From contig NZ_RCCE01000002.1 in assembly GCF_003663885.1 (NCBI RefSeq), positions 558,001 through 622,000 of the forward strand: a stretch of DNA of 64,000 nucleotides, in the 5' to 3' direction. The notes below the pieces were generated by a model that was given only the letters and a program-made list of their open reading frames with translations, was not told the origin of the DNA and ran no database searches. The DNA is from Litoreibacter meonggei. GTDB taxonomy: Bacteria > Pseudomonadota > Alphaproteobacteria > Rhodobacterales > Rhodobacteraceae. A program made the translations under genes and the position numbers. Below, piece by piece: positions 16,935 through 18,022 of this stretch. Within the stretch, counting starts at the first letter, position 1. Each line of letters begins with the position of its first letter.

Positions 16935-16959
16935 GGGCTCCCGATTGGGAGCCCTTTTT
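16935..16959 (+). terminator. Rho-independent terminator of sat-cysC
   Basis: An 8-bp perfect stem, GGGCTCCC (16935-16942) with GGGAGCCC (16947-16954), has a GATT tetraloop and is followed directly by TTTTT. It is a textbook terminator for the gene ending at 16911 and separates it from the convergent DUF1150/hsp20 unit. Confidence 0.92.
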
Positions 16960-16984: not shown

Positions 16985-17215
16985 TCAGTGAACGGTCACC
17001 GGCGAAAAGTCATTTTGGCGCGCCAGCATGAAGGCCATTTCGCGATCCTTCACCAAAGCAAGGCGCTCCCCGTCTGGCGCATGAACCGCATAAAGCTGAT
17101 CAACGCCCGACATCTCGGATTGCACTTCTTCCGGCAAATCCGCGAAATCGACAGGGCGTACGTAAACGATCCGGTCGGTGCCGCCCAAAGTTTTCAGGTC
17201 AACTTGTGTGTCCAT
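16985..17215 (-). CDS. DUF1150 family protein
   Basis: A 76-residue protein recognised as DUF1150 from its IVYVRPVDFADLP (about 17-29) and YAVHAPDGERLALVKDREMAF (about 42-62) pattern. The family is confined to alphaproteobacteria and I recall it next to small heat-shock protein genes; its function is not known. It follows hsp20 with 5 nt between them, so it should be co-transcribed and heat-induced. There are no membrane spans or cysteines. A chaperone partner or regulator role is speculation from position. Confidence 0.88.
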   Translation of the reverse strand: MDTQVDLKTLGGTDRIVYVRPVDFADLPEEVQSEMSGVDQLYAVHAPDGERLALVKDREMAFMLARQNDFSPVTVH

Positions 17216-17220
17216 GACGA

Positions 17221-17631
17221 TTATCCTTTATTGATCTTGATGGTTTGCACGATTGTATCGGGCACGGCCCGTTTCAGATCGACGTGAAGCAGCCCATTCT
17301 CGGTTGCGGCGCCAGCAACTTCGACACCATCTGCCAGCACGAATGCCTTTTGAAATTGTCGTGCAGCAATCCCGCGATGCAGGAAAATTCGCTCATCATC
17401 TGCATCAGCCTGCCTGCCCCGCACGATCAGCTGGCGGTCTTCGACGGTGATCGACAGGTCATCTTCGCCGAACCCGGCGACCGCAAGCGTAATGCGGTAA
17501 GCGTTGTCTGCGGATTGTTCGATATTGAACGGCGGATAGCCGTTCTCGGATTTGGCGGTGCGTTCTACCAGCCGTTCCAACTGGTCAAAGCCCAGCAAAA
17601 AAGGGTACGACCCCAAGGTCAATTTCGTCAT
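17221..17631 (-). CDS. Small heat-shock protein, Hsp20 family
   Basis: A 136-residue alpha-crystallin-type chaperone that holds unfolding proteins without ATP. A short N-terminal arm (LGSYPFLLGFDQLERL) is followed by the alpha-crystallin domain from about residue 35 to 125, including YPPFNIEQ and the conserved AGFGEDDLSITVEDRQLIVRG region (split here by VAG at 51-54), then a short C-terminal extension with an I-x-V/I-like motif. The gene is IbpA-like. Upstream lie a sigma-32-type promoter and a hairpin that hides the AGGA ribosome site, both described separately. It is followed by the DUF1150 gene. Confidence 0.94.
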   Translation of the reverse strand: MTKLTLGSYPFLLGFDQLERLVERTAKSENGYPPFNIEQSADNAYRITLAVAGFGEDDLSITVEDRQLIVRGRQADADDERIFLHRGIAARQFQKAFVLADGVEVAGAATENGLLHVDLKRAVPDTIVQTIKINKG

Positions 17632-17636
17632 GGCAC

Positions 17637-17689
17637 AGTCCTAGATGTTTAAGCGACTTTGCGAAGTATGGCCCCCGAAAGCAGCCATA
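17637..17689 (-). ncRNA. Candidate ROSE-type RNA thermometer in the hsp20 5' leader
   Basis: On the minus-strand transcript, AGUCGCU (17658-17652) can pair with AGGACU (17642-17637) across a 9-nt loop, leaving one bulged G. The paired AGGA is the ribosome site, seven bases before the hsp20 ATG. This is the defining ROSE feature: a U(U/C)GCU motif pairing with AGGA around a bulged G. An upstream helix, UAUGGC/GCCAUA (17689-17684 with 17672-17667), gives the multi-hairpin layout expected. Melting of the first helix on warming would free the ribosome site. Confidence 0.65.
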
Positions 17690-17697
17690 AGAATAAA

Positions 17698-17724
17698 ATG
17701 GGGGCTGTTTGTCGATGAATCAAG
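17698..17724 (-). promoter_or_regulatory. Sigma-32 (RpoH) type heat-shock promoter for hsp20-DUF1150
   Basis: On the minus strand a -35 element CTTGATT (17724-17718) and a -10 element CCCCCAT (17704-17698) are separated by 13 bases. The RpoH consensus is CTTGAAA, 13-15 bases, CCCCAT. Transcription would start near 17691 and give a leader of about 60 nt, the length expected for a ROSE element. Confidence 0.65.
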
Positions 17725-17821
17725 AGCGATATGCGCGAAACACTGGACAGCAAGCGCGCACACCCCCACATTGCAGATGACCTCAGCAAAGAGCACTAAG
17801 CCCGTGAAATCATCCGAAAAC

Positions 17822-18022
17822 ATGAGCAAGAACGATGTTCTTCGCGTGAAGCTCGAAGTCCTCAAACGAGAGCATCGTGATCTGGACGAGGCTATTGCAG
17901 CATTGCAGGAAAAGTCGGCGCCCGATCAGCTGACACTTCGTCGGCTGAAAAAGCAAAAACTGTCGCTGAAGGACCGCATCGCGGCCCTCGACGACGAGCT
18001 TACCCCAGATATTATTGCGTGA
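17822..18022 (+). CDS. YdcH family protein (DUF465)
   Basis: A 66-residue, highly charged helical hairpin protein. The DUF465 pattern is clear: LKREHRDLDEAIAAL (about 14-28) then LRRLKKQKLSLKDRIAAL (about 38-55). The family is widespread in proteobacteria as short YdcH-like proteins without a proven function. The ATG at 17822 is the simplest start; the frame is open further upstream to 17645, but that part overlaps the leader of hsp20 and does not look coding. A GTG at 17804 is an alternative start. It stands 57 bp upstream of purE. Confidence 0.78.
   Translation: MSKNDVLRVKLEVLKREHRDLDEAIAALQEKSAPDQLTLRRLKKQKLSLKDRIAALDDELTPDIIA

Follow-up and report, generated by a model that had tools for sequence, protein, structure and literature searches.

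A probable short two-hairpin ROSE-like RNA thermometer in the hsp20 leader of Litoreibacter meonggei and other Rhodobacteraceae

Introduction

Does the short leader of the small heat-shock gene hsp20 in Litoreibacter meonggei (Rhodobacteraceae) sense temperature, and, if so, to which of the known RNA thermometers is it closest? The question is raised by a stretch of 64,000 nucleotides (contig NZ_RCCE01000002.1, positions 558,001 to 622,000), which is called the window below. The original prediction placed a ROSE-type thermometer of the design known from rhizobia behind a sigma-32 promoter at this gene.

In a survey of 2005, more than 40 ROSE-type elements were recorded before small heat-shock protein (sHSP) genes of alpha- and gammaproteobacteria (cited in PMC4166951). 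In Nautella sp. R11, ibpA and hspD were likewise reported to be preceded by typical ROSE-like motifs (PMC3230580). This strain, like the bacterium considered here, belongs to the Roseobacter clade and carries the motifs at sHSP genes; they very probably represent the same element as that described in this work.

The hsp20 Leader and Its Promoter

The features named in the original prediction are all present on the minus strand, where it had placed them, and the positions given below refer to this strand unless indicated otherwise. The hsp20 gene (17221–17631), encoding a small heat-shock protein of 136 amino acids (Pfam PF00011, E 4.1e-17), begins with ATG at 17631–17629. This start puts the element in the 5' untranslated region, provided that the element is transcribed, as we infer. 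A DUF465 gene (17822–18022, plus strand, presumed start at 17822) is divergent from hsp20 and about 190 bp apart from it, and a PF00731 (purE-type) gene is oriented divergently in the same way. The open reading frame 17645–18022 in the program-made list is longer than the DUF465 gene only mechanically and overlaps the hsp20 leader.

A sigma-32 (RpoH)-like promoter occupies 17698–17724 and consists, as predicted, of CTTGATT (17724–17718), a 13-nt spacer and CCCCCAT (17704–17698). A similar pair, CTTG-N(14-20)-CCCAT-like, was found upstream of hsp20 in 127 of 138 distinct stretches from the family and in 0.9% of shuffled sequences (65/6900). The gap between CTTG and CCCAT is 18 nt in 114 of the 127 promoter-bearing stretches, and a looser count, in which TTG alone was allowed, gave 134/138. 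The distance from the end of the -10 match to the hsp20 ATG in the family stretches has a median of 67 nt (59–93). We take the CTTG...CCCAT pair upstream of hsp20 to be the sigma-32 consensus.

Two hairpins are predicted in the window leader, with the Shine-Dalgarno sequence (SD) inside the last one, and both were returned by RNAfold. This arrangement agrees with that of ROSE-like thermometers, which comprise two to four hairpins and carry the SD in the final one. Hairpin I (17667–17689) has the form UAUGGCU-(G)-CU..GG-(G)-GGCCAUA; its outer helix is formed by UAUGGC (17689–17684) and GCCAUA (17672–17667), and the pairing continues inward beyond the unpaired G 17682. Hairpin II (17633–17662), the putative sensing hairpin, can be written as GCA-A-AGUC(G)CU / AGGACU-G-UGC. 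Its core is composed of AGUCGCU (17658–17652) and AGGACU (17642–17637), G17654 remaining unpaired in the predicted fold, and is extended outward by GCA/UGC (17662–17660 / 17635–17633). In this fold, the anti-SD UCGCU (17656–17652) is opposite the SD AGGA (17642–17639), which is located 7 nt upstream of the ATG. Thus, the proposed AGUCGCU/AGGACU hairpin with one bulged G over the hsp20 ribosome site is also obtained with RNAfold, and its motif recurs in the family as described below.

Conservation of the Motif

The motif UYGCU, followed after 3–20 nt by AGG[AG], was found in 132 of the 135 distinct Rhodobacteraceae hsp20 leaders examined, among the matches listed. The set was obtained by adding 80 further loci to a first one, in which 73 of 76 leaders have the motif, and contained 156 loci before the removal of duplicates. 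Hsp20 matches with higher scores supplied most of this set (the better part of 360 genomes and the best 80 of 466), and close Hsp20 orthologs are over-represented in it. The same motif occurs in 1.6% of shuffled leaders (246/15200) and before none of 50 long open reading frames of the window used as control genes, whose starts were mechanical and from which those within 80 nt of either window end were skipped. Three of the 135 family leaders are without it: L054, where the variant CUGCU is kept, L055 and L063. In the genomes of the latter two (G028 and G034), hsp20 is present, and its product is 62% and 53% identical to that of the window, respectively; in a relative from the same genus (G010), the identity amounts to 98%.

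Outside the family, in the same class, 57 of 73 ortholog leaders have the motif and 16 do not, the frequency in shuffles of the same 130-nt stretches being 3.7%; one locus at a contig end (L244) and three repeats (L221, L227 and L230) were omitted from this class set. Leaders of second, lower-scoring Hsp20 genes (paralogs) contain it in 22 of 24 cases, six of the 24 leaders being from the family. The second hsp20 of the window genome itself (leader L067, G000:C3) has UUGCU..AGGA before its start and a hairpin-I-like match further upstream.

Comparison with Known ROSE Elements

An Rfam search had been recommended as a check of the predicted ROSE element, and it gave no support in the window. 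No match at the gathering score was found in the whole window, and at E ≤ 10 the region 17500–17900 gave only a chance microRNA match and none to the ROSE models RF00435, RF01832 or RF02523. The hsp20 leader is therefore not filed as a member of any of these three families. As a positive control, the E. coli ibpA leader was matched by ROSE_2 at 100.4 bits. Among 20 other leaders, ROSE_3 scored 25.9 bits in L057 and 22.0 bits in L076 (cut-off 43), and the paralog leader L070 gave the only ROSE_2 match among the sequences studied here, at 22.9 bits, below the cut-off. A search with RF02523 over 142 genomes of the class yielded none above the cut-off and 11 genomes with weak matches at E ≤ 0.1, one of which (G052) is an hsp20 leader; weak matches were also found in 2 of 14 control genomes. 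RF00435 gave no match in 58 genomes of the class, but none of the 14 control genomes was matched by it either, so that its silence carries no weight.

The consensus structures themselves are similar to the leader under study. In ROSE_3 (RF02523), as in the hsp20 leader, both hairpin I (GAUGCCG/CGGGUC) and hairpin II (CUcGCu/GgAG) have an unpaired G. ROSE_2 (RF01832), the family of E. coli ibpA, likewise has a UCGCU/AGGA hairpin with a bulged G, and the hairpin that precedes its sensing one also contains an unpaired G, as hairpin I does here.

The unpaired G 17682 of hairpin I (UYGCC/GGRR in the family), a feature absent from the original prediction, is, accordingly, common to the ROSE_2 and ROSE_3 consensus structures. 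It is kept in a hairpin that presumably does not melt. The main text of the Pseudomonas study considered next makes no use of the word "bulged" (PMC3669281).

By its published description, the classical rhizobial ROSE (RF00435) has the same SD/anti-SD core as the hsp20 leader, but it comprises three to four hairpins, whereas two are predicted here (PMC3669281). Closest is the ibpA thermometer of Pseudomonas, which likewise consists of a leader of about 60 nt, behind a sigma-32 promoter and before an sHSP gene, with an unpaired AUG and two hairpins: hairpin I is GC-rich, and in hairpin II the SD faces U(U/C)GCU (PMC3669281). Such leaders of 61–62 nt, which sit behind sigma-32 promoters, provided 4.3- and 6.4-fold heat induction. 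It was reported that hairpin II melts between 25 and 42 °C, whereas hairpin I does not, that breaking four pairs of hairpin I led to derepression, and that hairpin II alone still gave heat control (PMC3669281). The differences are that Pseudomonas belongs to another bacterial class, that hsp20 is followed by larA here, and that the hairpin II loop of the window has 9 nt. Consequently, the ROSE-like signature in the original prediction stands, while the specifically rhizobial design does not, the closest match being the short two-hairpin element of Pseudomonas ibpA.

Predicted Folding and Opening

The folding energy of the window leader is unremarkable (z -1.85, 12 of 200 shuffles being as good), and that of hairpin II alone is ordinary (z 0.01). 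Since neither value stands out, the case for the element is a comparative one.

According to RNAfold, the hsp20 SD of the window is unpaired with a probability of 0.08–0.15 at 15–47 °C, and no melting of the leader is predicted by 47 °C. In 131 leaders, the SD is predicted to be less accessible at 20 °C than in 22 control open reading frames (0.19 vs 0.39 unpaired, p 3e-4). Between 20 and 42 °C, its predicted unpaired fraction rises only slightly, from 0.19 to 0.24, and this rise does not differ significantly from that of the controls (p 0.11). The established E. coli ibpA ROSE, taken as a positive control, behaves in the same manner, with 0.01 unpaired at 20 °C and 0.05 at 47 °C. The energy model thus misses the melting of a proven element too, and the predicted opening is not evidence either way.

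This bears on another explanation, namely a fixed hairpin that masks the SD and lowers translation at all temperatures, or answers a small RNA or a protein, heat control being left entirely to sigma-32. Such a mask would fit both the sigma-32-like promoter and the near lack of predicted opening by 47 °C, but the latter is shared with the E. coli ROSE. Moreover, tested ROSE-like elements are defined by U(U/C)GCU whose bulged G lies opposite the SD, and deletion of the bulged G in the one at oppF lowered heat induction (PMC11342760). A mask of this kind is, in our opinion, unlikely, and the thermometer is preferred.

Both hairpins were also altered in silico. When G17654 was removed, the SD closed (0.00–0.01 unpaired). 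Removal of the 5' arm of hairpin I reduced the anti-SD:SD pairing from 0.85 to 0.53 in 114 leaders, which fits an insulating role for hairpin I. Capture of the anti-SD by the GGGG arm of hairpin I after this removal was considered but not supported: the mean pairing was 0.09, and 7% of these leaders, all of which have the pattern required for it, exceeded 0.5.

Structure Models and Covariation

When a MAFFT alignment of 60 leaders was analysed by RNAalifold with no structure supplied, hairpin I was recovered with its unpaired G (column 23). Its family consensus is GGUYGCCG..CGGGGCC, the unpaired G corresponding to 17682 in the window. Hairpin II was missed in this unaided analysis of the 60 leaders, because in some rows its 3' strand is misaligned. 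The bulged G of the anti-SD strand is G in 60/60 aligned leaders, and in 13 of 14 leader stretches RNAfold returned the core of hairpin II, this G being unpaired; the remaining one, L041, had been cut into hairpin I.

Both hairpins were represented in a covariance model (R1), which was built from 60 family leaders, including that of the window. The window leader, being in this training set, scored 41.6 bits, and the next match in the window 9.1. In 41 genomes, R1 gave 22 matches at E ≤ 1e-6, all of them hsp20 leaders, many of which had helped to build the model. At this threshold, the hsp20 leader was found in 22 of 25 family genomes, G019, G021 and G024 showing weak matches only; at E ≤ 1e-4, 93 of 100 family sources match, and L028, L029, L032, L042, L047, L048 and L099 are missed.

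Beside the 22 strong matches, 39 weak ones (E 3e-4 to 0.1) were present in the 41 genomes, at least 4 of them before hsp20. Seven of the remaining 35 were inspected as candidates for further targets and taken as chance matches, six being within a long open frame or lacking the anti-SD/SD core. The seventh, L181 (763–829, minus strand; E 3e-4), is a second R1 match in genome G017 and has the core GUCGCUU..AAGGAU. It is probably also due to chance, the frame after the core being antisense to an open frame of 274 codons, which presumably resembles a penicillin-binding protein.

Compensating changes were sought in a 93-row alignment. In this alignment, which is biased towards the structure, having been fitted to it, 90.4% of cells pair, and 34–64% do so when the structure is slid along it. 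Double-sided changes are found in 11 of 16 pairs (126 cells vs 54 in shuffles). With a tree-based null, in which the substitutions of each column are redistributed over a tree, four of the nine hairpin I pairs are significant (E < 0.05, 16 pairs being tested). None of the hairpin II pairs reaches significance singly within the family (best p 0.016, with E 0.25, and 0.017), its core being nearly free of substitutions. When all column pairs were tested, one true pair, 11-42 of hairpin I, passed E < 0.05; so did the non-pair 102-104 at the start codon, whose signal is probably an alignment effect.

A wider comparison is provided by the clamp, the base pair that flanks the UYGCU/AGGR core on its outer side. 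It was read on motif-anchored leaders, the anchoring being independent of the clamp. Of 134 family leaders, 123 have G-C at this position and 7 have A-U. Outside the family, C-G is present in 44 of 57 leaders, and the 22 leaders of second genes include 10 with A-U and 5 with G-U. A standard pair is present in 199 of 213 leaders, compared with 120 after permutation over all leaders and 181 after permutation within groups; none of 2000 within-group permutations, which ignore relatedness, reached 199 (maximum 189). Outside the family, an SD of the AGGAGG type makes G more likely at the 3' position of the clamp. For the next pair outward, the number of leaders with a standard pair falls to 119 of 213.

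Taken as a check of the proposed structure, the alignment of relatives is partly affirmative: hairpin I, including the predicted UAUGGC/GCCAUA helix that RNAfold and RNAalifold both recover, covaries, and hairpin II is conserved, but no pair of the latter is significant within the family. The AGUCGCU/AGGACU helix without conservation or covariation, named beforehand as the outcome that would speak against the element, was not what was found, as the core is conserved and the clamp switches class-wide. That the conserved bases are DNA- or protein-binding signals, such as a repressor site or SD spacing, with hairpins as by-products, is very improbable: the hairpin II core is indeed almost invariant, as a binding site would be, and in the first known ROSE the conserved bases had initially been interpreted as a transcription-factor site (PMC4166951), but hairpin I shows compensating changes, the clamp switches between G-C, C-G and A-U, and the signal is lost in slid structures.

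Proposed Mode of Action

Summarizing these data, it may be concluded that the hsp20 5' leader is, in all likelihood, a short, two-hairpin ROSE-like RNA thermometer, whose melting and effect on translation we infer from tested ROSE elements. At the level of sequence, the ROSE-like reading is supported by the motif, the bulged G, the position before an sHSP gene, the promoter, the conservation, the covariation of hairpin I and the switching clamp.

Transcription would start near 17690 from the sigma-32 promoter. At growth temperature, hairpin II would pair the SD AGGA with UCGCU, so that ribosome loading is inefficient and Hsp20 is synthesized only in small amounts; the bulged G17654 would weaken the helix over the SD, by analogy with the oppF element. 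On heating, sigma-32 would raise the mRNA level and hairpin II would open, allowing Hsp20 to be translated. Hairpin I would remain folded and aid the correct folding of hairpin II.

The hsp20-larA Operon

Downstream of hsp20, 5 nt after its stop codon, a larA homolog (DUF1150; 16985–17215; Pfam PF06620, E 3.1e-23) is located on the same strand. In Caulobacter, the DUF1150 protein is LarA, a sigma-32-controlled activator of the Lon protease encoded in an operon with sHSP2, and its last five residues, with V86, V88 and H89, form a Lon degron (PMC10665427). The window LarA ends in VTVH, resembling this degron (V-x-V-H), and at least 96 of 110 family loci encode a DUF1150 protein ending in VH. The operon is followed by a terminator-like hairpin (16935–16954, both strands match; consensus scan) with a perfect 8-pair stem, which lies between larA and the converging gene of an ATP-sulfurylase/APS-kinase fusion.

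A DUF1150 gene was found downstream of hsp20 on the same strand in 110/110 family loci, not all of which are from distinct genomes, and in 105 of them its start codon is separated from the hsp20 stop by -10 to 30 nt. Outside the family, 27 loci were searched with the window LarA as a single query: a DUF1150 match follows hsp20 at a distance of 63–203 nt in 15 of them, and in 12 no match was found within 1.5 kb. A tight hsp20-larA operon as a class-wide feature was not supported by these 27 loci and is claimed for the family only.

The SD of larA is predicted to be open (0.91 unpaired in the window; mean 0.61 over 94 distinct of 108 loci examined, 6 being without an SD-like string), and translational coupling of larA to hsp20 is therefore not needed. 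The hsp20 SD is predicted to be mostly covered and that of larA open, which suggests that the thermometer may gate only Hsp20, with larA on its own open ribosome site. In this split gate, a tentative and rather doubtful prediction, Hsp20 would need both sigma-32 and heat, and LarA sigma-32 alone. If so, a single promoter would serve two outputs that follow different logic: under proteotoxic stress in the absence of heat, Lon activity would rise and the holdase would not, and on heating both would rise. A link between a thermometer and the larA operon was not found in print in a literature search on LarA, Lon protease and thermometers judged by title, and the Caulobacter paper (PMC10665427) does not use the term "thermometer" in its main text.

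Conclusions

Judged from comparative evidence, the element in the hsp20 leader is, very probably, a new and widely conserved representative of the short two-hairpin ROSE-like kind. It would extend the design tested in Pseudomonas and rhizobia to the Rhodobacteraceae (132/135 leaders examined) and to the wider class (57/73). Marine bacteria in warming water would thereby have a direct translational heat switch on a main small chaperone.
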